A DNA stretch of 22,827 bases from a virus. How positions within the stretch are numbered: the first letter of the stretch is position 1; every line of letters starts with the position of its first letter. The stretch lies in the IMG/VR virus record IMGVR_UViG_3300010883_000535, positions 1 to 22,827 of that record. One strand, 5' to 3'. Shown piece after piece: positions 252-14,800 of the stretch. Made by a program: the position numbers and the translations under genes. The notes under the pieces were generated by a model. The model did no database searches, was not told where the DNA came from, and saw only the letters and a list, made by a program, of their open reading frames with translations.

Positions 252-649
252 TTGATAAAGATAATTTTTATGATTACTTACAAGGTAACATTGAGAGAGA
301 AATCCTCGATACTCTTTGTAATAAGAATAGAATAACTCTAATGGAGATTGGTAATATGATAATTAATAATCTTGACTTAGAAGAAGATGTTGGTGAGATA
401 GAAGAGGAACTATTGATTGATATAATCACTAGCACAATTAGAGGACTACGACGAAGATGGATAGATAACATAGGTTGTGAATTGTTTGTTAATACTTTGA
501 AAGACAATAAAAACATGCAAGAAAGTAAACTTTGGGTCAATCCCAATGCTTTATTGATATTACAATCAATATCAGTAAAACAATACGATGAAAACGGTGA
601 GGTATTGTGTTTACAATTACCTGACTTTGAAATGGAGGAATGGATATGA
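248..649 (+). CDS. hypothetical protein, possible winged helix
   Basis: This 133-aa protein is not recognised with confidence. The N-terminal half is helical and has a pattern seen in winged-helix DNA-binding domains: helix at about 12-24, a short turn 'RITLMEIG', then a basic helix around residues 62-72 with GLRRRW. The C-terminal half is beta-rich. It starts in an ATGA overlap with the preceding gene and its end contains the GGAGG (634-638) for the next. A transcription-regulator role is only a guess from the helix pattern. A long antisense ORF covers most of the gene but has no start signal and is very Ile/Ser-rich, so it is a shadow. Confidence 0.6.
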   Translation: MIDKDNFYDYLQGNIEREILDTLCNKNRITLMEIGNMIINNLDLEEDVGEIEEELLIDIITSTIRGLRRRWIDNIGCELFVNTLKDNKNMQESKLWVNPNALLILQSISVKQYDENGEVLCLQLPDFEMEEWI

Positions 650-912
650 ATATAATGGAAGATAAAAAGAAAGTAGAATTTAGAATAGTAGATGATGCAG
701 AATTGCCCCCTATCGTAATTACGATGGATGAGAATGATGAACCAAAGGTAGTGATTAATACTTATCACCGTATTTGGATTAGTCTTAATCGTAGGTTAAT
801 TGCAGGTATTATTGATAATCTACAAGAAAAGATGGATATGATTCTAACTGGCTATCTCTCAGAACAAAGAAACTTTGAGAAGGAAGACAGGGAATACCAA
901 CAAGAATTTTAA
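646..912 (+). CDS. small hypothetical protein
   Basis: This 88-aa acidic protein is not recognised. I chose the start at 646 rather than the in-frame ATG at 640 because 646 forms an ATGA overlap with the previous stop and lies seven bases after GGAGG (634-638), the spacing used elsewhere here. A beta-strand-like N-terminal half (VEFRIV, IVITMDE, KVVINTY) is followed by a long helix that ends in a charged tail. There are no cysteines or catalytic motifs. The gene is followed by AAGGAAGTGA, the binding site for the next small gene. Confidence 0.6.
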   Translation: MNIMEDKKKVEFRIVDDAELPPIVITMDENDEPKVVINTYHRIWISLNRRLIAGIIDNLQEKMDMILTGYLSEQRNFEKEDREYQQEF

Positions 913-925
913 GGAAGTGAAAAAA

Positions 926-1027
926 ATGAATAATATGAAAAGTAAAAAAAATGGAAAAACAACCCAAGCCGCATCCGTTTATAAGGGTGCAGGTCATGGA
1001 GAGAATAACTCGGAGGAATATGTATGA
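926..1027 (+). CDS. 33-aa basic mini-protein
   Basis: This ORF encodes 33 residues beginning MNNMKSKKNG. The N-terminal half is Lys/Asn-rich and the C-terminal half is Gly/Glu-containing. GGAAGTGA (913-920) precedes the ATG by five bases. The TGA (1025-1027) overlaps the ATG of the ubiquitin-like gene (ATGA), and its last codons contain that gene's GGAGG (1012-1016). It may be a genuine mini-protein, or mainly a translated leader that delivers ribosomes to the downstream start. No family is recognised. Confidence 0.45.
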   Translation: MNNMKSKKNGKTTQAASVYKGAGHGENNSEEYV

Positions 1028-1224
1028 TTAAATTACGGATATTAAACGAAACAGGACACACTGACTTACAATTAGTTAGTGATGGCGTTATTGAGCAAAT
1101 AGACACGCACCCTACACATTGGGTGTTTGTTGATGGTGACATGGTAATGCGTGAAGAAATCAACAGTATTGATTGGGAAACCGTTCAATCAGTTGATTTG
1201 GTTCCTGCTATCGTTGGCGGATAA
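1024..1224 (+). CDS. ubiquitin-like / ThiS-MoaD-type beta-grasp protein ending in Gly-Gly
   Basis: This 66-aa protein has the second-half signature of the MoaD/ThiS/SAMP beta-grasp family: 'WVFVDGDMV' (residues 33-41, equivalent to the family's VxVNGexV) and the C-terminus 'VDLVPAIVGG', with Gly65-Gly66 immediately before the stop. In this family the terminal GG is adenylated by an E1-like enzyme and then either carries sulfur as a thiocarboxylate or is joined to protein lysines. It starts in an ATGA overlap, seven bases after GGAGG (1012-1016). A matching E1-like enzyme (6073-6633) and a JAMM protease (7696-8142) are encoded downstream on the same strand. Whether it acts as a protein modifier or a sulfur carrier cannot be told from sequence. 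No processing is needed, because the GG is already terminal. Confidence 0.75.
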   Translation: MIKLRILNETGHTDLQLVSDGVIEQIDTHPTHWVFVDGDMVMREEINSIDWETVQSVDLVPAIVGG

Positions 1225-1228
1225 GAAA

Positions 1229-1306
1229 GGCTATAAGCCGTTCACAAGTTGCGTAATTGGGGTGGGGTGTAGCGAAACGCTACATTCTGCCCCTTTAGCA
1301 AGTGTG
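1229..1306 (+). ncRNA. nested stem-loop RNA element before the RNR-containing gene group
   Basis: The 87-nt gap 1225-1311 is the longest noncoding gap before the replication block and looks richer in G and C than its surroundings. A small hairpin GGCT/AGCC (1229-1239) comes first. Then an outer stem pairs CACA (1243-1246) with TGTG (1303-1306) and TTGC (1249-1252) with GCAA (1298-1301). Inside it GGGG (1264-1267) pairs with CCCC (1290-1293), and the tip is a perfect 7-bp stem TGTAGCG/CGCTACA (1268-1274 with 1278-1284) with an AAA loop. A second GGGG (1259-1262) could compete for CCCC. The 3' side of the outer stem covers GTGAT (1304-1308), the only ribosome-binding-like sequence before the ATG at 1312. 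The design resembles a cis-acting translational switch. I match it to no known RNA family. Confidence 0.5.
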
Positions 1307-1311
1307 ATAAT

Positions 1312-1689
1312 ATGATAGACTTACGGCACTTTATATCAGCAGAAGCATTGAAAATGTTCCTTGAAACTAAGGGATGGAAACTTCTTATTCCTTTAGTTAT
1401 TCAAGAAAAGGCTGTTTTTAAGCCAGATTTTTATAATGAATCTACTATCATAGCACAAGGAAAACACGGTAATATAGTAGCCGTTGGAAATACTGTAATA
1501 AATTATCAAGGGGAATCCTTTGATAGTCCACATGCTATTATTGATAAGCATGGTTTAGTGGCTATTGAAGATTTTGATAATTGGGATTTTGTAGAAGAAA
1601 TGGAGTGGGTCATTTATAAAAATGGCTATTGGTTACATTCTTTTACTAATCTTTTAGAATTACCGAAAGCAAGTAAATATAGGTGTTAA
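1312..1689 (+). CDS. hypothetical protein preceding the RNR gene
   Basis: This 125-aa protein is not recognised. It has a short helical N-terminus, then a beta-rich body with many aromatic and Gly/Asp turns ('GNIVAVGNTVINYQG', 'EWVIYKNGYW'). There are no cysteine clusters and no visible catalytic motif. Its start follows the structured noncoding element at 1229-1306, which appears to cover the ribosome binding region. Its TAA (1687-1689) sits between the AGGTG and the ATG of the ribonucleotide reductase gene, so the two are probably co-translated. Confidence 0.6.
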   Translation: MIDLRHFISAEALKMFLETKGWKLLIPLVIQEKAVFKPDFYNESTIIAQGKHGNIVAVGNTVINYQGESFDSPHAIIDKHGLVAIEDFDNWDFVEEMEWVIYKNGYWLHSFTNLLELPKASKYRC

Positions 1690-1691
1690 TT

Positions 1692-3560
1692 ATGAAACAA
1701 GAAAGTAAAGCAATCGAAATATTATCGGACATAACAGTGCATATGAAATATGCTAGGTTTATTCCTGAAGAACAACGAAGAGAAACTTGGGATGAAATAG
1801 TCAATAGGAATTGTGAAATGCACAAGAAGACTTACCCAGAATTAAGTGGTGAAATAAATGAAATATACGAACAATACATTAAAACAAGAAAAGTCCTTCC
1901 TTCTATGCGCTCTATGCAATTTGGGGGCAAGCCTGTGGAGATTAGTCCGAACAGGGTCTATAACTGTGCTTATATGCCTATTGATTCCTATATTGCTTTT
2001 GGCGAAAGTATGTTTTTACTTCTCGGTGGAACGGGGGTCGGTTATTCTGTCCAACGACATCATATTGAACAATTACCCGAAATACAACAACCGAATGATA
2101 ATAGAAAACGCCGTTATCTCGTTAATGATTCTATTGAAGGTTGGGCTGATGCAGTAAGAGTCTTACTAGAATGTTACATGGGTATTAAGAAAGATAGTCC
2201 TAGATTTGATTATTCTGATATTAGACCTAAAGGTTCTCTTTTAAAGACTTCTGGTGGAAAAGCGCCAGGCCCTCAACCTTTGCGTGAATGTTTAGTAAAG
2301 GTCGAAGGTATCTTACAAAACATGCCTAATGGTTCTAAACTCGAACCTATTCAAGCACACGACATTATGTGCCATTTAGCCGATGCAGTATTAGCAGGAG
2401 GTATTCGTCGTGCCGCTATGATTAGTTTATTCAGTGCAGATGATTCTAAAATGCTTTCATGTAAAGCAGGTGAATGGTATGTTAATAATCCACAAAGAGG
2501 TAGAGCAAACAATTCAGCAGTATTACTTCGTCACAGAATAGATAAAGAATTCTTTATGAATGTTTGGGAACGAATTCAATTGAGTGGTAGTGGAGAACCC
2601 GGAATTTACTTTAGTAATGATAAAGATTGGGGAACTAATCCTTGTTGTGAGATTGCACTAAGACCATTTCAATTCTGTAACTTAACAGAAGTTAATGCAA
2701 GTAACATTGAAGGACAAAAGGACTTAGAAGAAAGAGTTAAGGCCGCTTCGTTCTTAGGAACATTACAAGCAGGTTATACTGATTTCCACTATTTGCGTGA
2801 TATTTGGAGAAAGACTACTGAAAAGGATTCTTTGTTAGGAGTATCTATGACAGGGATTGCGGCAAACATAGTTGAGAAATTAGATATTGAGTCGGCTTCT
2901 TTGCAAGCAAAGTTAGAAAACCACAGGGTTGCTAAGATAATTGGTATTAACCCTGCAAGTAGAATAACTTGTGTTAAACCCGCAGGAACAACTTCTCTTG
3001 TATTAGGTTCTTCTTCTGGTATTCACGCTTGGCACGATGAGTATTATATTCGTCGTATTAGAGTTGGTAAGAATGAAGCAATCTATTCTTACTTATTAAA
3101 TAATCATCCCGAACTTGTTGAAGATGAATATTACAATCCCGATGAACAAGCCGTAATTAGTATTCCTCAAAAAGCCCCTGCCGGTGCAATAACTCGTAAG
3201 GAGAGCGTATTTGATTTACTTGAAAGAGTAAAGCAATTTAGCATTCGTTGGGTTAATAATGGACATGTTGATGGAATGAATACCCACAATGTATCAGCAA
3301 CTATTTCAATCAAAGAAGACGAATGGGATGATGTTGCTGAATGGATGTGGTTTAATCGTCATTACTACAATGGATTAGCCGTGTTGCCTTATGATGGTGG
3401 AACTTACAAACAAGCACCATTTGAAACAATTACAAAAGAACAATACAACAGTATGTATTCTTTGTTAGGTTCTATTGACTTAACTAAGGTTGTTGAGAAT
3501 GAAGACAATACTGACCTAGCAAGCGAAATTGCTTGTGCAGGTGGGCTTTGTGAAATCTAG
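1692..3560 (+). CDS. nrdJ: class II (adenosylcobalamin-dependent) ribonucleotide reductase
   Basis: Reduces ribonucleotides to deoxyribonucleotides for viral DNA synthesis, using adenosylcobalamin to make a thiyl radical. The 622-aa protein resembles the monomeric Lactobacillus leichmannii type. It has 'NCAYMP' (Cys92) and 'GGTGVGYSVQ' (about 112-121). 'NPCCEI' places the radical Cys at 318 and Glu at 320. 'CNL' (Cys329, 11 residues later) would pair with Cys92. 'KPAGTTS' and 'YYIRRIRVG' follow, and the C-terminal redox pair is Cys615 and Cys620 in 'CAGGLCEI'. The L. leichmannii enzyme is about 740 aa, so this one is compact. I chose ATG 1692 because AGGTG (1681-1685) lies six bases before it; the in-frame GTG at 1683 is part of that site. 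No activase or beta subunit is nearby, as expected for class II. Confidence 0.93.
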   Translation: MKQESKAIEILSDITVHMKYARFIPEEQRRETWDEIVNRNCEMHKKTYPELSGEINEIYEQYIKTRKVLPSMRSMQFGGKPVEISPNRVYNCAYMPIDSYIAFGESMFLLLGGTGVGYSVQRHHIEQLPEIQQPNDNRKRRYLVNDSIEGWADAVRVLLECYMGIKKDSPRFDYSDIRPKGSLLKTSGGKAPGPQPLRECLVKVEGILQNMPNGSKLEPIQAHDIMCHLADAVLAGGIRRAAMISLFSADDSKMLSCKAGEWYVNNPQRGRANNSAVLLRHRIDKEFFMNVWERIQLSGSGEPGIYFSNDKDWGTNPCCEIALRPFQFCNLTEVNASNIEGQKDLEERVKAASFLGTLQAGYTDFHYLRDIWRKTTEKDSLLGVSMTGIAANIVEKLDIESASLQAKLENHRVAKIIGINPASRITCVKPAGTTSLVLGSSSGIHAWHDEYYIRRIRVGKNEAIYSYLLNNHPELVEDEYYNPDEQAVISIPQKAPAGAITRKESVFDLLERVKQFSIRWVNNGHVDGMNTHNVSATISIKEDEWDDVAEWMWFNRHYYNGLAVLPYDGGTYKQAPFETITKEQYNSMYSLLGSIDLTKVVENEDNTDLASEIACAGGLCEI

Positions 3561-3568
3561 GTGTTAGT

Positions 3569-3904
3569 ATGCGCCACGCTTATAGGAAACTATCTTATAG
3601 CGAATATAAGCGGGCCATGCTAACTTACTTAAATTCATTTAAACTAGAATCAAAAAGAAGACTTCTTTTAGCCTTTGAGGTGTGTGATAAAATGGAAGAT
3701 GAAAGTGAAAAGAAATACAGATTAGAACAAACAGTTAATTCTGTGTTGTGGGATTTTGATGAAGCAATTGAAATAGGATTTGCTGAATGGAAGTCCTTCA
3801 ACTTAGTGAATAGAAACAACGCCTTGATTTATCACGATTTAAATAAAGATGAATGTGATGGGAATTGTTTATTGTGTAAAGAAGCATTTGGGTGGAAATC
3901 ATGA
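3569..3904 (+). CDS. hypothetical helical protein with C-terminal Cys cluster
   Basis: This 111-aa protein is not recognised. Residues 8-75 are predicted helical and charged. The C-terminus has Cys96, Cys100 and Cys103 ('CDGNCLLC') with His89 nearby, a likely metal-binding knuckle. The start overlaps the RNR stop through TAGGTG (3558-3563), the same stop/RBS arrangement as before the RNR gene. It ends in an ATGA overlap with the next gene, another small Cys/His protein. Because it sits directly behind nrdJ, a role linked to reductase re-reduction or nucleotide metabolism is possible, but nothing in the sequence shows it. Confidence 0.65.
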   Translation: MRHAYRKLSYSEYKRAMLTYLNSFKLESKRRLLLAFEVCDKMEDESEKKYRLEQTVNSVLWDFDEAIEIGFAEWKSFNLVNRNNALIYHDLNKDECDGNCLLCKEAFGWKS

Positions 3905-4068
3905 AAGAAAAAGACCCCAAGTATGTTAAGAGTCACAGGACTTACAAGAAAAGAATAGCAACTTCTTGCCGTATATGCGGTAATCAGTTATTAATACCTG
4001 AAGAAATTAGAAAAGAAATGCACGATAATTGTGCACTAAAACAGAATGATAATATATATATGATGTGA
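3901..4068 (+). CDS. 55-aa zinc-finger-like protein
   Basis: This is a basic protein of 55 aa with Cys23-x2-Cys26 ('CRICG') and His41-x3-Cys44, a plausible CCHC zinc site. The first 20 residues are rich in Lys and Arg, which suggests nucleic-acid contact. The start is an ATGA overlap with the preceding gene. The stop (4066-4068) is four bases before the next ATG. Small CCHC proteins are common in archaeal viruses and usually bind DNA, RNA or protein. No specific family is recognised. Confidence 0.65.
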   Translation: MKEKDPKYVKSHRTYKKRIATSCRICGNQLLIPEEIRKEMHDNCALKQNDNIYMM

Positions 4069-4072
4069 AAAT

Positions 4073-5239
4073 ATGGGAATAATGAAATTACAAATTAAAA
4101 AACCAGATGATACTTCAAATTACTTTCCGGAAGTAATGATTAAGTCTGACATCTTTACTTTAGAAAGTAGAACAAGAACACTATACTTAACAAGAAGTGC
4201 AAAAGACCCTGTGCATGATTCATTGGTGTCTTATTGGAAAGACTTATTATCTAATAAAGGATATTATGCTATTCAAAGCCAAATGCAAAAGGGAGCAATT
4301 CTTATATTCATAGAAGGGCTACCAATAGCACTTGATAGAAAAGGAACCCGCTACCAATTGAACGGTAAAAGTGAATCACTAAGTACCATTACAAATGCCT
4401 TAGCAAGAGTTTCTTTTTCAGCAATTAGGGAAAAGGAAGCAAGTCCATTGTTAAAGACACTAATGAAAACACTATCTTTATCTGAAAACATTAAGTATTG
4501 TTTAGAGAATAAAGTGCCGTTTCATTTCTATGATAACTTTACTAAGATAGATGTAAGGCTTAATGTTCAGCAAATATCTGAAAAAGAATGTGCTTTGGAA
4601 ATAAGTGATGGTGTTTGGGGAGTTATCTCTAATAGGAACTTAGATAGTTTCTGTACCTTCTTTCGTAGTGATAAGAAAATGGGTAAATATAAGTTTATGG
4701 GCATTAAGAGACTTTATGCTTCTCTTCTCGGAGAAAACCCAACCGACCATCAACTTACTCTCATGCGAGAGTTTTTGAAACAGAATAGACAACAGGATAT
4801 TGTGGAAAACAGGGCCATTCAATTATTACATGAGATGGAATCCCAACACCCCGATAACCTTAAATTAGAGATGGAGGATGGAATACCAATGTCACTATTG
4901 ATTAAAGGCAAAGGATATGATTGGAAACTTACTAACAGTGAGTATAAAAGCGATATTCAAAAGGTTAGCACTTATGTATGCCAACCCCGACTACAAAGTA
5001 ATGAAGAAGGCAATCCACTACCACTAGAAGATTGTGAGTGGGCTTGGCATGGGCCAATCTGTATTGATAATATGTCGGAAGGTTCTTCTCTTGGCGACCA
5101 ATTCGCCGCAAGAGCATTCGCACTATTAAACGATACAATGACAATAAAAATGGTGAATACAATTAAAAGATATTTAATTGCACCTGAAAATACAAATAGG
5201 AAGGATTTTGATGAGATGCTTAGAGTGCAAGACAAGTGA
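4073..5239 (+). CDS. 388-aa hypothetical protein
   Basis: This is one of the larger proteins here and I do not recognise it. The first 130 residues are mixed alpha/beta ('TRTLYLTRSA', 'GAILIFIEGLPIAL'). Residues 150-205 look beta-rich and end in 'DGVWGVISNRNLDSFCTFF'. Residues 210-260 are helical and basic, and the C-terminal part has many Trp, Cys and Pro residues ('CEWAWHGPICIDN') before a final helix. There is no P-loop, metal-binding triad or HTH that I can identify. The start at 4073 follows GTGA (4065-4068); an in-frame ATG at 4082 is the alternative. Its 3' end overlaps TFB by 29 nt, so the two are probably expressed together. Confidence 0.7.
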   Translation: MGIMKLQIKKPDDTSNYFPEVMIKSDIFTLESRTRTLYLTRSAKDPVHDSLVSYWKDLLSNKGYYAIQSQMQKGAILIFIEGLPIALDRKGTRYQLNGKSESLSTITNALARVSFSAIREKEASPLLKTLMKTLSLSENIKYCLENKVPFHFYDNFTKIDVRLNVQQISEKECALEISDGVWGVISNRNLDSFCTFFRSDKKMGKYKFMGIKRLYASLLGENPTDHQLTLMREFLKQNRQQDIVENRAIQLLHEMESQHPDNLKLEMEDGIPMSLLIKGKGYDWKLTNSEYKSDIQKVSTYVCQPRLQSNEEGNPLPLEDCEWAWHGPICIDNMSEGSSLGDQFAARAFALLNDTMTIKMVNTIKRYLIAPENTNRKDFDEMLRVQDK

Positions 5240-6080
5240 ATTTGAATACGATGAAGTAATGGGAGAAACCGCATGTATGGCATGTGGGTTAATCGCAGTA
5301 ACTGAATTGTTTGAACAGCGAGTGTTATCTATTGATAATGGAGATTTAAAACATACTGCTGACAAAACAGGATTAGGTAGTAAAATAGCAGGGCATAGTA
5401 AATTGGCTATGACTCACATGCGATTTAGTGGTAATGATAGTCATATTAGAAAGGGTATTCTTTTCTCTAATATGGTGTTCTCTAGTATGAATATTCAAGA
5501 CTCTTCCCTAAAGGATAGAATAGGAGAAGTGTATAGAGAATTACTTTCTAAAGGAGTATTTACTTCGGCAAATACTTTAGAAGTAAGAGGAACAGCAGTA
5601 ACTTGGTTTGTTCTCAAAGAAAATAAGACTCCAGTAACTATTAAAGAAGCCTCAAAGGAATTTAATTGTGCAGGAAAGAGTTTGAACAGATTGATTAGAA
5701 GAATCAATAGTTATTACGGTGTAAGAAACAAACAATTACAACCCGACCCTCAATATTTGTTAAAGAAAGCAGCAAATAAAATAAGCGGGGATATTGTTTA
5801 TGTGTCAAGGTGTCAAGAAACACTTGAGTTATTTGAGTCAGTAGTGATTCAATCAGAATACAATAAAAGAAATGCATACTACGAAAGTATTTGTTGGATA
5901 GCAAAGAACATCTTTGTTCATCCAAGAATAACCTTGCGTAGTATTTCAGAAAAAACAGGAACTTCAAGGTCTGCGATTCAAAAGCAGACTAAAGACCTAT
6001 TAAATTTAATAGGCTACAATACTTGTGCCCAAGTAAAAGGCAAACAAATAAGTGAACTAGGAGAGATTAAAAATGAATAG
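5211..6080 (+). CDS. tfb: transcription initiation factor B (TFB/TFIIB homologue)
   Basis: TFB bridges TBP at the promoter and archaeal RNA polymerase. The 289-aa protein has an N-terminal zinc ribbon, Cys3-x2-Cys6 and Cys22-x2-Cys25 ('MRCLEC', 'CMACG'), a linker around 35-85, and two helical repeats (about 90-180 and 190-280) like TFB cyclin folds. The second ends in a helix-turn-helix ('TGTSRSAIQKQTKDLLNLIG') expected to read the BRE. The length is normal for archaeal TFB. I chose ATG 5211 because it puts the zinc ribbon at the N-terminus and lies five bases after AAGGA (5201-5205); the upstream in-frame TTG (5178) adds residues with no counterpart. A viral TFB would redirect host polymerase to viral promoters. 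Its end overlaps the E1-like gene by 8 nt. Confidence 0.87.
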   Translation: MRCLECKTSEFEYDEVMGETACMACGLIAVTELFEQRVLSIDNGDLKHTADKTGLGSKIAGHSKLAMTHMRFSGNDSHIRKGILFSNMVFSSMNIQDSSLKDRIGEVYRELLSKGVFTSANTLEVRGTAVTWFVLKENKTPVTIKEASKEFNCAGKSLNRLIRRINSYYGVRNKQLQPDPQYLLKKAANKISGDIVYVSRCQETLELFESVVIQSEYNKRNAYYESICWIAKNIFVHPRITLRSISEKTGTSRSAIQKQTKDLLNLIGYNTCAQVKGKQISELGEIKNE

Positions 6081-6633
6081 AAAAATATTAATAATTGGAA
6101 CAGGCGGCATTGGGTCATTCTTGACTCAATACTTAGATAAAGTCGGACTATATAACATTACTGTTGCAGACCCCGATATTGTTGAAACAAAGAACTTAAC
6201 TTATCAAAACTTTAAGAGAGGTCATGTTGGGCAGAACAAGGCTAGTGTGATGATGAATGAATATCAATCAGTCAATCATTACTCTAAGTTTCCTATCTTG
6301 ACAGGAAAGCAAATGGAAGGATTTGATTTGGTTATCTGTTGTGTAGATAACTTAAGTGTCCGACGCACCTTATACAACACAAGTATTAAATGGTTGGACT
6401 TACGAGCGCAGGGCAGGAACGCCGCACTTGTGAGCCACAAGGCCGACCCTAAAATGTATGATATGCTTTTAGCAGGTAAAGATGGTTCATTTAGTTGTCA
6501 AGGAGATTCATGGGATGGAACAAACAAAGCGGTTCATTTCATGCAAGTCGCAATTGCAGGTATGGGCGCACAATGGATTCAACGCTACATGAATGAAGAA
6601 GAAGTATGTGATTTTAAGGTTGTGAATGTATGA
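6073..6633 (+). CDS. E1-like / ThiF-MoeB family adenylyltransferase
   Basis: Enzymes of this family adenylate the C-terminal glycine of ubiquitin-like or sulfur-carrier proteins. The 186-aa Rossmann protein has 'GTGGIG' (9-14) for nucleotide binding, 'DPDIVETKNL' (33-42), 'VGQNK' with Lys56, and 'CCVDNLSVRR' (89-98) with the catalytic-type Asp92. All align with MoeB/ThiF landmarks. One difference stands out: the family's N-L-x-R-Q has Tyr44 instead of Arg. Cys142 in 'SFSCQGD' lies where E1 proteins carry the zinc or transfer cysteine, and is the best candidate thioester Cys. The protein is much shorter than UbaA or MoeB (about 250-270 aa) and has no rhodanese domain. GGAGA precedes the start. 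It overlaps TFB upstream and the Myb-like gene downstream (ATGA). Confidence 0.85.
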   Translation: MNRKILIIGTGGIGSFLTQYLDKVGLYNITVADPDIVETKNLTYQNFKRGHVGQNKASVMMNEYQSVNHYSKFPILTGKQMEGFDLVICCVDNLSVRRTLYNTSIKWLDLRAQGRNAALVSHKADPKMYDMLLAGKDGSFSCQGDSWDGTNKAVHFMQVAIAGMGAQWIQRYMNEEEVCDFKVVNV

Positions 6634-7703
6634 GCAAATGGACAAAGGAACAATATGAATATGTTTTAAAAGCAAGTAAGGCAGGAAATTCCAGAAATAA
6701 AATTGCTAGAGATATGCAAAGAATATTTGGAGTTAAAAGAACAGGACAACTCATAAATGCAAAGATGCACTATGAGAAAAAGAAAGAAGAAAAGGAAAGT
6801 GAAAATATGAATTGGAAAACAGAACCCGCAACACGGAAACAATGCAAGTATATTGCAGGATTATCTCTACCCGAAGGTAGTAAACAACAAAGAAAACAAC
6901 TAGAAGACTCATTGTATGTTCAGTGTGTTAAAGGTAGTATGACTAAAGAAACTGCTTCTTTGCAAATTGAACAATTGGAGAACCTAACAACTGTTGTTGC
7001 TAAAACAAAGAAGCCTACCTCTAAGAAACGCCGAACCCGAACTACTGGTTTGATGAGTCCTAATTGGACTAAAGAAGAAGATGAAATAGTAATTGCTAAT
7101 TATCGTAATAGAGAGGATTTCCCTTCAGTTGAAAAACTATTACAAGACCGAACATTACCTGCTGTATATCAACGATTCGTTAAGATGAGGAAGAATGGAA
7201 GAATTGCAGAATTCGACGCAAAGCCTAAGACAGTAACAGTAAAGGTTGATTCTGCATTAGAGGATTTAATTGAAAAGCATGGTAATCCAATTACCCGTCA
7301 TCTATCAAAGGATGATGTTACCTTACTCAAGAGTGTTGATAAAAGAATGAAAACCTTAGATGATTTATCCGGTATTTCTTGGTCTACAAATGAAGAATAT
7401 AGTTTGAATGAAATGGAAGTCCTTTTGGCTTTCTATGAGAAATCAATTGATGAATTGCGAGAACAGTTTATTGCTCCTTTTTGGGCAATAGCAAAGACTT
7501 TAGAAAACATTCACGATTTGAAAGAACCTCACCATAGCGACTTGCTTATGGAAGCGGCAAGAGTCACTAAAGAGCGAAAGGATGAAGAGTATAGAATCGC
7601 CAATATGAGTCGCCGTGAGCGTCGTAAGGTAGCAAAAAACGCTAAGAAAGAGAGCAAACTACAAGCAAAATTAGACAAACTGCGGGGTGTAATCAATGAG
7701 TAA
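6630..7703 (+). CDS. Myb/SANT-like DNA-binding protein
   Basis: This 357-aa basic protein has two Myb/SANT-like helix-turn-helix patterns: residues 3-47, from 'KWTKEQYEYVL' through 'KIARDMQRIFGVKRT', and residues 145-190, from 'NWTKEEDEIVI' to 'LPAVYQRFVKMR'. Between them, residues 67-118 show a 'TRKQCKYIAGL' ... 'MTKETASLQIEQL' pattern that I recall from other phage proteins. A Lys/Arg stretch (126-138) and a highly charged C-terminal helix (about 310-355) would bind nucleic acid or form a coiled coil. It starts in an ATGA overlap with the E1-like gene and overlaps the JAMM protease gene. It may be a transcription regulator or a chromatin-like protein. A link to the ubiquitin-like system is suggested only by position. 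Confidence 0.7.
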   Translation: MSKWTKEQYEYVLKASKAGNSRNKIARDMQRIFGVKRTGQLINAKMHYEKKKEEKESENMNWKTEPATRKQCKYIAGLSLPEGSKQQRKQLEDSLYVQCVKGSMTKETASLQIEQLENLTTVVAKTKKPTSKKRRTRTTGLMSPNWTKEEDEIVIANYRNREDFPSVEKLLQDRTLPAVYQRFVKMRKNGRIAEFDAKPKTVTVKVDSALEDLIEKHGNPITRHLSKDDVTLLKSVDKRMKTLDDLSGISWSTNEEYSLNEMEVLLAFYEKSIDELREQFIAPFWAIAKTLENIHDLKEPHHSDLLMEAARVTKERKDEEYRIANMSRRERRKVAKNAKKESKLQAKLDKLRGVINE

Positions 7704-8142
7704 TCAAGAAGCAATTGAGATTGAAATTAATACAGCATTTAACACCACTAAGGATTTTAGTGATGAATCGTTTCATTCTGCTATTTGGAAAGCATCAACA
7801 GAAATTCTAAATGGATTAGAAGTCCAAGTAGTAGTAGATGCAAAGAATGAATTGTATATTTCCTATGGAACAGCAGGTTTTGTTGATTTTAAAACAATTC
7901 CCGAAGGAATGAAACTACCTGTCAAGTGTTGGATTCATACACACCCTTTTGGTGCGGCTTATTTTAGCGGCACTGATTGGCGAACTGTGAACATTTGGCA
8001 ACCATTAATGAAAGAAGCATATGTTTTAGGTGGCGAAGACCATTTCGGCCATTGGAACAACGAAGAACCTAATGTTTTATGTATTCACAAAGACGGATTA
8101 TATACATTACAATACCAATACAAAGGAGATGAAGAAGAATGA
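7696..8142 (+). CDS. JAMM/MPN (JAB) domain metalloprotease
   Basis: JAMM proteases are zinc enzymes that remove ubiquitin-like proteins from targets or trim their C-termini. The 148-aa protein has an exact JAMM motif, His81-x-His83-x7-Ser91-x2-Asp94 ('HTHPFGAAYFSGTD'), after a beta-strand with the typical 'CWIHTHP' context. An upstream glutamate (Glu36 or Glu42) could serve as the catalytic acid. The length is that of a single MPN domain. It starts inside the end of the Myb-like gene, 8 nt overlapping, and ends 'DEEE', with the Glu codons forming part of the next gene's ribosome binding region. With the E1-like protein and the GG-ended ubiquitin-like protein it matches the parts list of archaeal sampylation (SAMP, UbaA, HvJAMM). 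Confidence 0.88.
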   Translation: MSNQEAIEIEINTAFNTTKDFSDESFHSAIWKASTEILNGLEVQVVVDAKNELYISYGTAGFVDFKTIPEGMKLPVKCWIHTHPFGAAYFSGTDWRTVNIWQPLMKEAYVLGGEDHFGHWNNEEPNVLCIHKDGLYTLQYQYKGDEEE

Positions 8143-8411
8143 AAGGCGGAGACAGCACTACACACAAACGAAAAGAGATTCCTATGGGAAATAAAGAACG
8201 AATGCAAACAGCAGACAGATATACTGCACATATGTTGTTGCATCCTAATGATGATGGTAAACCCAAGAACAAAAAAGTTACTTGGGGTAATGTTGGAAAG
8301 AGAACAAAGAAACTGAATGAGTTCTACAAGCAACATATCTATACCTTTGTTGATAGAGATATGAATAAGGCTTGGGTGCGAGTTGCAGGATTTGAGGAGG
8401 AAGAAGAATGA
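8139..8411 (+). CDS. small basic hypothetical protein with acidic tail
   Basis: This 90-aa protein is not recognised. The first 65 residues are Lys/Arg-rich and contain 'RMQTADRYTAHMLLHPNDDG' and 'TWGNVGKRTKKL'. The C-terminus is 'GFEEEEE', whose codons form the GAGGAGG (8394-8400) that serves the next gene. It starts in an ATGA overlap with the JAMM gene, so the two are probably translated together. There are no cysteines. It could be a nucleic-acid-binding protein or a substrate or partner of the JAMM enzyme, but there is no direct evidence for either. Confidence 0.6.
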   Translation: MKGGDSTTHKRKEIPMGNKERMQTADRYTAHMLLHPNDDGKPKNKKVTWGNVGKRTKKLNEFYKQHIYTFVDRDMNKAWVRVAGFEEEEE

Positions 8412-8545
8412 AAGTAATCAATAAAGAAAACATAATTGCTTCTTTAGAACATAAGGATAAGGATGAATTAATTAGTATCATTAAAAAATTAATTAGTGCT
8501 TATAGTTCTCTTTACATAGAAGAAAGACGGGAGGAAGAAGAATGA
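8408..8545 (+). CDS. 45-aa charged mini-protein
   Basis: This mini-protein of 45 aa begins MKVINKENII and ends REEEE. It starts in an ATGA overlap, eight bases after GAGGAGG (8394-8400), and ends in an ATGA overlap with the GroES-like gene; its final Glu codons supply that gene's GGGAGG (8529-8534). A single amphipathic helix is likely (residues 8-40). Overlaps at both ends in the same register as its neighbours argue that it is translated. No function can be assigned. Confidence 0.6.
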   Translation: MKVINKENIIASLEHKDKDELISIIKKLISAYSSLYIEERREEEE

Positions 8546-8769
8546 TTGCTTGTGGAGATTGGGTTTTAATCCAAACAGAACAAACCAGTAGTTATGGTAT
8601 TATCAGTAAGTCTGATAATAAAGGAGTTTGTGTTTCTGCTTCGGAAGAACATAGTTATTTAATTGATGCTATTGTTTATTTCGACAATACAGGAACACAA
8701 TATCAAAAGGTTGGAGACTTAACTGTTGTTCCTTTTGCCCGTGTTTATTGTTTTGAGGTGGTTGAATGA
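8542..8769 (+). CDS. GroES-like co-chaperonin (tentative)
   Basis: This 75-aa beta-rich protein follows the GroES strand order. 'GDWVLIQTEQ' (5-14) matches the GroES start (DRVIVKR.E), and 'YGIIS' (18-22) sits where GroES has its mobile-loop GGIVL. 'KGVCVSAS' (27-34) corresponds to the RGEVLAVG strand, 'IDAIVYFDN' (41-49) to VGDIVIF, and the end 'VVPFARVYCFEVVE' to the last strand. It is shorter than GroES (about 97 aa) and lacks part of the loop and roof. A group I chaperonin gene lies about 660 bp downstream in the same operon, which strongly favours this reading. An unrelated small beta-barrel is the alternative. The ATG is in an ATGA overlap, seven bases after GGGAGG. Confidence 0.45.
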   Translation: MIACGDWVLIQTEQTSSYGIISKSDNKGVCVSASEEHSYLIDAIVYFDNTGTQYQKVGDLTVVPFARVYCFEVVE

Positions 8770-13986: not shown

Positions 13987-14358
13987 ATGGAAGCAAAAAT
14001 AGGATATATTAAACTGAACAGTGGTGTAATTTATAAAATCAGTGAATTAAATAAGAAGGCTAATGGAACTGCAATTAGAGATTGTTATTCTAATCTTAGA
14101 GCAGAAGCAAGAACACTTAAGTTATTACATGAGCGTTTATATGTATTGCGGTGTAAAGAAACTGAATTCGCTACAATGACAGACACTAATAAGAAAATAC
14201 TAAAATGTGTTGGTCTTGATAAAAATTCAGAAATTAATGAAAGAGCAGATAGATTGGAACAGATTCTAGGACTAGCCATAATTCAATTAGAGAATGGTGC
14301 AGAACTAGATTTAGTATTAAAAATTTTAAAACAAAATAGGAGTGATAGTGATGATTGA
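13987..14358 (+). CDS. hypothetical helical protein
   Basis: This 123-aa protein is not recognised. A short beta start ('GYIKLNSGVIYKI') is followed by three long charged helices (about 20-58, 64-90 and 92-118), a coiled-coil-like layout with no glycine breaks. GGAG (13973-13976) lies within the end of the ligase gene, and the ATG is one base after the ligase stop. Its end overlaps the histone-fold gene by 8 nt and contains that gene's AGGAGTGAT. Confidence 0.6.
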   Translation: MEAKIGYIKLNSGVIYKISELNKKANGTAIRDCYSNLRAEARTLKLLHERLYVLRCKETEFATMTDTNKKILKCVGLDKNSEINERADRLEQILGLAIIQLENGAELDLVLKILKQNRSDSDD

Positions 14359-14800
14359 AGTAGGAGGATTAACTGTAATTGACTTTAAGACATATAGTTG
14401 TCTTGAGATTGATGATGAAGGAATGGCACACCTAAAAGATGTAACTACTACACAAGGTAGGCCAAAGAAAATAAAATCACATTTAGTTCCCTATTTCAAA
14501 GACGGTAAGTTTATTACACCCGAACCCGAACCTGTTGAAGTTTACAAGATTAAAACTAGGCTGAATATTAAAAACATTATCAAAGAAGAAGTTGAAATGC
14601 CAATTAGTAATTCAACAGTCCGTTTGTTGTCCGAGTGGTGTAATACTGCATTACGCAATATGATTATCAATGCTCAACAAAATGCACTTATCAAGGGTAG
14701 TAAAACAATCAATGCCGCACATGTGTTTTGGATGGAAACTAATATGCAAGTAGAAGGCTATTGGCCTGAGAACATTGATTATGTAAAGAAGGAGGAATAA
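14351..14800 (+). CDS. histone-fold protein with N-terminal beta domain
   Basis: Residues 84-133 of this 149-aa protein follow an archaeal histone. 'ISNSTVRLLSEW' fits helix 1 and the start of helix 2, 'CNTALRNMIINAQQNALIKG' fits the long helix 2 with its small-residue pattern, and 'SKTINAAHVFWMETN' matches the R-K-T-I-x-A-x-D-V loop and helix 3. The first 80 residues are a separate beta-rich domain and linker ('EPEPVEVYKIKTR'), so this is a fusion rather than a stand-alone histone. It could package or organise viral DNA, or act as a TAF/NF-Y-like transcription partner. I chose ATG 14351 over upstream GTGs (14342, 14348) because AGGAGTGAT ends four bases before it. Length and spacing suit a histone fold, but no profile was run. 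Confidence 0.6.
   Translation: MIEVGGLTVIDFKTYSCLEIDDEGMAHLKDVTTTQGRPKKIKSHLVPYFKDGKFITPEPEPVEVYKIKTRLNIKNIIKEEVEMPISNSTVRLLSEWCNTALRNMIINAQQNALIKGSKTINAAHVFWMETNMQVEGYWPENIDYVKKEE

Follow-up and report, generated by a model that had tools for sequence, protein, structure and literature searches.

We analysed a window of 22,827 bases that is itself a virus record (IMG/VR record IMGVR_UViG_3300010883_000535, positions 1 to 22,827). It is densely coded on the + strand, and three of its genes encode a putative ubiquitin-like modifier, an E1-like activating enzyme (E1) and a metalloprotease of the JAMM/JAB family (Table 1). An earlier prediction made from the sequence, hereafter the original prediction, had read these genes as a minimal ubiquitin-like system in an archaeal-type virus. 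The three open reading frames (ORFs), their positions on the + strand and their motifs were confirmed in the window, as was the presence of replication and transcription genes of archaeal type.

Table 1 Genes of the proposed ubiquitin-like set and two constant neighbours in the window
Feature	Position	Strand	Basis or remark
Putative ubiquitin-like modifier, 66 amino acids, Gly65-Gly66 end, no tail here	1024..1224	+	ORF, AlphaFold2 model, relatives
E1-like adenylating enzyme, 186 amino acids, single ThiF domain	6073..6633	+	ThiF match, AlphaFold2 model, conserved motifs
JAMM/JAB metalloprotease, 148 amino acids; Glu42, His81, His83, Ser91, Asp94	7696..8142	+	Prok-JAB matches, PDB match, conserved residues
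90-amino-acid protein, no assigned function	640..912	+	Accompanies the three genes in 66/66 complete loci; only a possible partner
388-amino-acid protein, no assigned function	4073..5239	+	In 66/66 complete loci; possible partner only

The modifier ends in ...PAIVGG, followed by a TAA stop codon. Searched by sequence, it gave no match at E ≤ 1 in Pfam, NCBIfam or the phage collection, two chance-level matches in PHROGs, and none among PDB sequences, where its profile reached only E 0.42 and above. An AlphaFold2 model built on a 28-row alignment had a predicted local distance difference test score (pLDDT) of 92.9 and a predicted template modelling score (pTM) of 0.80. Its predicted elements (strands E2-8, E11-17, E32-36, E39-41 and E56-61; helices H19-28 and H43-48) follow the order strand-strand-helix-strand-strand-helix-strand, which is that of the beta-grasp fold. 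The 50 best of 583 Foldseek matches (E 0.007-0.055) were nearly all ubiquitin-like proteins or complexes thereof. VIA-align 2 placed the model closest to a MoaD-type chain (3rpf, Z 5.6), with SUMO1, a bacterial ubiquitin-like protein (Ubl) bound to its deubiquitinase, TtuB and Pyrococcus SAMP2 (5lda, Z 5.0) at Z 5.0-5.2. Because the lists of neighbours are consistent and the length and topology agree, we confidently predict that the 66-residue protein adopts a beta-grasp fold, an argument that does not draw on the height of the scores.

Relatives of the modifier keep the Gly-Gly in 91 of 91 distinct sequences and strongly conserve two further stretches, GHT and HPTHW. The most distant relative found (locus L219), 45% identical to the window's modifier, is likewise accompanied by an E1 and a JAMM gene. 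Among 88 distinct mature modifiers, 28 contain no lysine and 55 contain one, and lysine-linked chains would therefore be an unlikely general product. A metagenome-assembled genome labelled Altibacter includes three contigs with the modifier (L217, L218 and L219), most likely mis-binned virus contigs.

The E1-like enzyme carries the landmarks GTGGIG, VGQNK and CCVDN and matches the Pfam family ThiF (E = 1.2e-19 over residues 3-156). Its AlphaFold2 model (pLDDT 87.1) aligned over residues 1-186 with Uba3, SAE2, Cap2, MoeB, UBA5 and ThiF at Z 18-20, which suggests a ThiF Rossmann-type fold with the GxGGxG loop and the ATP-site lysine and aspartate in place. Gly9, Gly11, Gly12, Gly14, Asp33, Gln45, Lys56, Cys90, Asp92 and Cys142 were invariant in all covering copies (133 rows, the window included); some E1 loci had been fetched by patterns containing the glycine loop or SCQGDSW, whereas loci fetched by the modifier or the JAMM are free of that. 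Cys142, kept in 130 of 130 covering copies, sits before a long helix in a stretch modelled with low confidence (pLDDT under 50 at residues 134-136 and 138-144) and may be equivalent to the catalytic cysteine of the crossover loop. A Pfam scan found no rhodanese domain on the viral E1.

In the third protein, HTHPFGAAYFSGTD is an exact HxHx7Sx2D motif, with a glutamate upstream. Prok-JAB was matched by all 32 JAMM proteins scanned (best E = 2.8e-5). The window's own protein reached E = 0.003 and 17.9 of 25 bits, below the Pfam cut-off, and its PDB match to an AMSH-like protease (E = 0.003) ranked below an unrelated coatomer chain (0.0012). Glu42 is conserved in all 132 distinct rows, the two histidines in 131 (one gap) and Ser91 and Asp94 in 130 (two gaps); in a first set of 52 rows fetched by E1 alone, all five catalytic residues were invariant. 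The original prediction's description of the three proteins, namely a beta-grasp modifier ending in Gly-Gly, an E1-like enzyme and a JAMM protein, has thus held up, the fold of the first at the level of a structure model.

The modifier gene lies 5 kilobases (kb) from the E1 gene, and the original prediction had linked them across this gap by family logic and shared strand; a beta-grasp fold and co-occurrence in related viral genomes had been set beforehand as tests, and both were passed, the fold as a prediction. Viral contigs were scanned separately for each gene, giving 187 encoding loci for the modifier, 330 for E1 and 191 for the JAMM, with 80 kept from each scan; the totals of the query sets include additional scans, and many contigs recur between sets. 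Among loci fetched with the E1 as query, 64 of 87 had all three genes; the figures were 124 of 134 for the modifier and 55 of 80 for the JAMM. Loci missing a gene have a short flank on the side where that gene is expected, and the record of one apparent exception (L265) stops about 1.2 kb after its E1. Wherever all three genes occurred, their order and strand were identical (244/244 loci).

Furthermore, we used the modifier or the E1 to collect 66 non-redundant loci in which the modifier was required along with at least 2.5 kb before it and 9.5 kb after it. E1 and JAMM were each present in 66 of 66. Since these loci were picked by modifier or E1, the fairer figures are the JAMM count and those for the neighbours; besides the two constant genes of Table 1, ribonucleotide reductase was found in 37/66, a MazG-like protein in 36/66 and a Myb-like protein in 41/66. 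In 21 of 128 non-redundant pairs, the E1 and JAMM genes abut, with the earliest possible ATG at most 60 base pairs away. Among 30 of 80 records retrieved with PolB as query, mostly the longer ones, 19 contain the E1 and 14 the modifier. In those 19, E1 precedes PolB by 13.2-15.4 kb, and the 11 records lacking E1 extend no further than about 11.3 kb ahead of PolB; the five with E1 and without the modifier begin close to the E1. All of 20 long records (84-185 kb, picked via modifier or E1 loci) hold the modifier, ThiF and JAMM genes, and the set is located among replication genes. The link across the gap is therefore borne out by co-occurrence, order and abutment. One viral contig of 184,733 bases (G001; loci L018 and L097) has two copies of the modifier, E1 and JAMM genes about 90 kb apart; it is twice the usual size and may have arisen when the assembly fused two genomes.

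Among the new findings, the most telling is a tail that follows the Gly-Gly in most modifiers. Fifteen of the 91 distinct sequences end at the glycines and 76 continue; of the latter, 61 have two extra residues and 11 have one, lengths of four, seven, eight and nine occur once each, and the non-empty tails come in 34 different forms; the search patterns used on viral contigs for the modifier drew on other stretches and not on the protein end. The conserved glycines are written with 14 codon pairs in 102 regions, and this variation indicates that the constraint acts on the protein. E1 enzymes adenylate a free Gly-Gly carboxylate. Tailed modifiers would therefore need a protease, for which the JAMM is the candidate, and the variable tail appears to mark a precursor requiring trimming. 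On a tree of 94 E1 proteins, some of whose branches are long, the tail state changes five times (4-5 over bootstrap trees). All five catalytic residues are retained in 23 of 23 distinct JAMM copies whose partner modifier is tail-less. As the JAMM is intact in tail-less viruses, the window's included, trimming would not be its only job, and its retention where nothing needs maturing suggests a role in deconjugation or in releasing a product.

Two further observations concern the tails. Long acidic tails (SCTIDDDDY, SCISDDD, CEDFDDGF and NEEE) follow the Gly-Gly in L257, L258, L259, L262 and L271. Many tailed modifier genes fold into an RNA hairpin at the stop codon (53/66); shuffling the downstream bases gave a mean of 53.0, and a hairpin over the stop codon was rejected as the cause of the tails.

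We consider it fairly probable that the three genes work together as a single virus-encoded cassette for conjugating and deconjugating a ubiquitin-like protein, with no conjugating enzyme (E2) or ligase (E3) recognised. From the genes, predicted folds, catalytic residues, gene order, Gly-Gly and tail observed at these loci, we infer the chemical steps, timing and targets of a pathway. The JAMM would first trim the residues after Gly-Gly where the modifier is tailed, the window's modifier already having a free Gly-Gly. The E1-like enzyme would adenylate the C-terminal glycine and then probably form a thioester on Cys142. The modifier would next be transferred to amino groups on viral or host targets, and the location of the genes among replication genes suggests that this would happen during infection. 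Finally, the JAMM would remove the modifier again, which could explain why it is kept with modifiers that need no trimming. The portion of Iyer et al. 2006 used here (PMC1779556) describes another set of JAB-E1 clusters whose E1s always lack a C-terminal rhodanese domain, and predicts ubiquitin-like transfer where an E1 accompanies a JAB protein; on that account, a viral E1 without rhodanese accompanied by a JAB protein supports a conjugation-type cluster. A more far-reaching version is that a marine archaeal virus group depends on its own complete Ubl conjugation cycle. Its modifier would be made as a precursor and be matured and later removed by one and the same JAMM, a stripped-down E1 whose ATP site is altered would hand the modifier straight to targets, and the cycle would reprogramme viral or host proteins in replication. 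We regard that version as evenly poised between holding and failing.

Several observations weigh against a conjugation cassette. Foldseek gave the modifier no match below E = 0.001 in the whole set of matches, and its best Z falls in the range that VIA-align 2 calls common. The structural match of the E1 starts at MoeB residue 30, with the N-terminal stretch missing, and all 131 of 131 E1 copies have Tyr44 where the Uba3 alignment shows the arginine of NLxRQ. In E1s, this arginine and the N-terminal arginine helix contact ATP. The missing stretch and Tyr44 therefore indicate that canonical chemistry may be altered in the viral enzyme. Partner searches covered 21 records (the 20 long ones and the window) with 14 genomes as controls. 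E2 (UQ_con) was found in 0/21 records, and its absence from the controls as well (0/14) makes the result uninformative. The co-occurrence of the three genes was seen within one virus lineage, so it largely reflects vertical inheritance. In addition, partners for sulfur chemistry could be supplied by the host, the partner search having covered five families in virus records.

This last point bears on the main rival, sulfur transfer with host partners. The modifier would be adenylated and converted to a thiocarboxylate with a host sulfurtransferase as donor, the sulfur would go to tRNA, a cofactor or cysteine, and the JAMM would trim the precursor or set the product free. The original prediction had named sulfur transfer as the main alternative; it keeps that rank in weakened form, and we judge it unlikely. 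QbsE-QbsD, HcyS-HcyD and CysO-Mec are JAMM-processed Ubl sulfur carriers, and in QbsE and HcyS the JAMM removes residues after Gly-Gly, so the tail alone does not decide between sulfur transfer and conjugation. MoaD, ThiS and TtuB are among the listed fold neighbours of the modifier, and Ubl-E1-JAB trios occur in sulfur and siderophore clusters, several of them with a rhodanese domain on the E1 (PMC1779556, in the portion used). Nevertheless, the viral E1 has no such domain, and the 21 records yielded no PAPS reductase, rhodanese, Aminotran_5, PALP or ATP_bind_3, each of which was detected in 13 or 14 of 14 controls, a count to be read with record completeness unstated and SirA/TusA-type carriers not searched. 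The retention of the JAMM alongside tail-less modifiers also speaks against a sulfur carrier.

Viruses hijack or strip ubiquitin, and a second alternative is counter-defence, in which the E1 and JAMM would chiefly block or strip a host Ubl defence and the modifier would be a decoy or competitor. Bacterial Ubl defence systems do have related E1 domains (PADLOC E1-E2 models, best E = 5.9e-12). Moreover, a paper on Borg elements proposes de-SAMPylases for them; it also finds a SAMP in one Borg (PMC12660748, in the sections drawn on). A pure stripper, however, would need neither its own modifier nor its own E1, and a set that sits in the replication module in 66/66 complete loci looks like core content rather than a patchy defence-related gene; we consider this explanation improbable. 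Least credible is that the 66-residue protein is a ubiquitin-fold binding protein (e.g., a protease inhibitor) that is not conjugated, with E1 and JAMM acting elsewhere: it could account for the conserved GHT and HPTHW, and 14 of 28 relatives weakly match the Pfam peptidase inhibitor PinA (best E = 0.00046, below the curated cut-off in those shown), but the match spans residues 7-55 or less at under 20 of the 27 bits required (6 of ten proteins matching), lies away from the Gly-Gly end where its range is shown, is not found for the window's own modifier and was rejected as chance-level, and binding alone leaves the invariant terminal Gly-Gly unexplained.

Returning to the conjugation cassette, the closest cellular parallel offered by the original prediction was Haloferax sampylation (SAMP1/2, UbaA and HvJAMM1; PMC2948915 and PMC12660748, each in part). 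The parallel stands for the list of parts, since both comprise three protein kinds in an archaeal setting without a recognised E2 or E3, and Pyrococcus SAMP2 is among the structural neighbours of the viral modifier. It does not extend to the E1, which lacks canonical features and at 186 residues scores 33.3 bits against the UbaA model cut-off of 450, outside the UbaA equivalog family, nor to the modifier, for which profile and PDB searches recognised no sequence relation to SAMPs. The viral set is, in addition, virus-encoded, and its modifier is often made with a C-terminal tail. Because the E1 falls below the equivalog cut-off, we do not class the set as sampylation; at most it works like it. 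Taken as a whole, the earlier interpretation is partly supported.

Cap2-Cap3 of CBASS and BIL are bacterial Ubl-E1-JAB operons, and Cap2 is among the best matches of the viral E1. Operons of this kind (Iyer 2006 class 6) share with the viral set the neighbourhood of E1, JAB and Ubl and an E1 without rhodanese. By contrast, the viral E1 is small and separate, without a fused E2 domain, and the viral set is common to a virus group whereas the bacterial ones lie in a defence island. QbsE-QbsC-QbsD is a sulfur-carrier trio that likewise combines Ubl, E1 and JAB. PdtH-PdtF-PdtG is another (PMC1779556, in the portion used), whereas PdtF-type E1s carry a rhodanese domain or have genes beside sulfur genes, and the five sulfur families were not found in the 21 viral records. 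Phages lambda and T1 encode, with TAPI-TAPK of tail assembly, a Ubl with a C-terminal glycine and a JAB peptidase; these are tail genes with no E1 described in that same portion (PMC1779556), unlike the viral set among replication genes.

A virus E1-like enzyme next to a JAB protein is also found in crAss001, where gp76 (ThiF) lies beside gp77 (Prok-JAB; L053, 6259-8657). gp76 and the window's E1 share 33.9% identity across 58% of the latter, whereas both crAss001 proteins are larger (383 and 414 amino acids). In crAss-like phages (L053, and L054 at 6551-8660), the Prok-JAB protein is followed directly by the ThiF protein, which the crAss001 annotation assigns to thiamine biosynthesis; the pair is a possible bacterial-phage parallel. 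No ORF of at least 50 amino acids ending in Gly-Gly plus 0-3 residues was found within 8 kb in crAss001. The single such ORF in three 16-kb stretches of crAss-like phages (L054, 98 amino acids) was unconvincing as a Ubl and was rejected.

In the literature, a host-prediction paper places MoeB/ThiF among the most prevalent auxiliary genes of archaeal viral genomes and suggests ubiquitination (PMC8276007, in the sections drawn on). Ubiquitin, ThiF and JAB are not mentioned in the main texts of PMC10160649, PMC5332604 and PMC5628999, their supplements lying outside this scope. A literature search with incomplete magrovirus coverage gave no report of a virus that encodes a modifier, its activating enzyme and a protease together as a common set. 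The combination of Ubl, E1 and JAMM is known in cells; new are a complete virus-borne version common to a virus group and the pared-down E1.

As for the virus itself, searches of the window found a class II ribonucleotide reductase, a TFB-like zinc-ribbon protein, the group I chaperonin GroEL, an ATP-dependent DNA ligase, replication factor C (RFC) and a PolB-like protein, and a tRNA-Arg(tct) is encoded as well. This content agrees with the Magrovirales replication module (PolB, GroEL, ligase, RFC-S, PCNA and TFB) in the five components covered here, which are all but PCNA, and matches the gene set of Aoguangviridae, magroviruses of Poseidoniales (PMC10768690); a magrovirus carrying tRNA-Arg-TCT is reported in part of PMC5628999. 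Judged by its gene content, the window comes from a magrovirus-like tailed virus, of which it is a fragment; the 25 PolB matches listed, out of 1424, included no classified magrovirus. The virus group is marine, with presumed archaeal hosts.

Two neighbours of the cassette genes are possible partners or targets. The 90-amino-acid protein has no Pfam family at E ≤ 0.01 and keeps H43, W46, R51 and G56, and the 388-amino-acid protein has DUF7911 as its sole Pfam match (E = 0.0087, below the cut-off). The Myb-like protein counted above is fast-changing, rests on a weak Pfam match and lies between E1 and JAMM at 6630-7703. A 152-amino-acid protein at 14342-14800 gave a histone-fold match (CBFD_NFYB_HMF, E = 5.3e-4, 20.7 bits against a cut-off of 21.4). 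Several window proteins have Glu-Glu-Glu C-termini, and at the two sites inspected (8130-8142 and 8396-8411) the Glu-Glu-Glu codons, GATGAAGAAGAATGA and GAGGAGGAAGAAGAATGA, overlap the next start codon. This overlap makes it more likely that the codons belong to a ribosome-binding site running over the gene end than that they encode a protein motif.

Should the set conjugate, ubiquitin-like chemistry could be modelled with three genes and no known E2 or E3, in a system compact enough for reconstitution in vitro, and a search for tagged proteins during the infection of ocean archaea would be justified. The E1, with 186 residues and no arginine at the usual place in the ATP site, would likewise probe the minimal needs of such an enzyme. 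As far as these genes and their conservation indicate, protein tagging like that of complex cells may also occur in viruses with presumed archaeal hosts.

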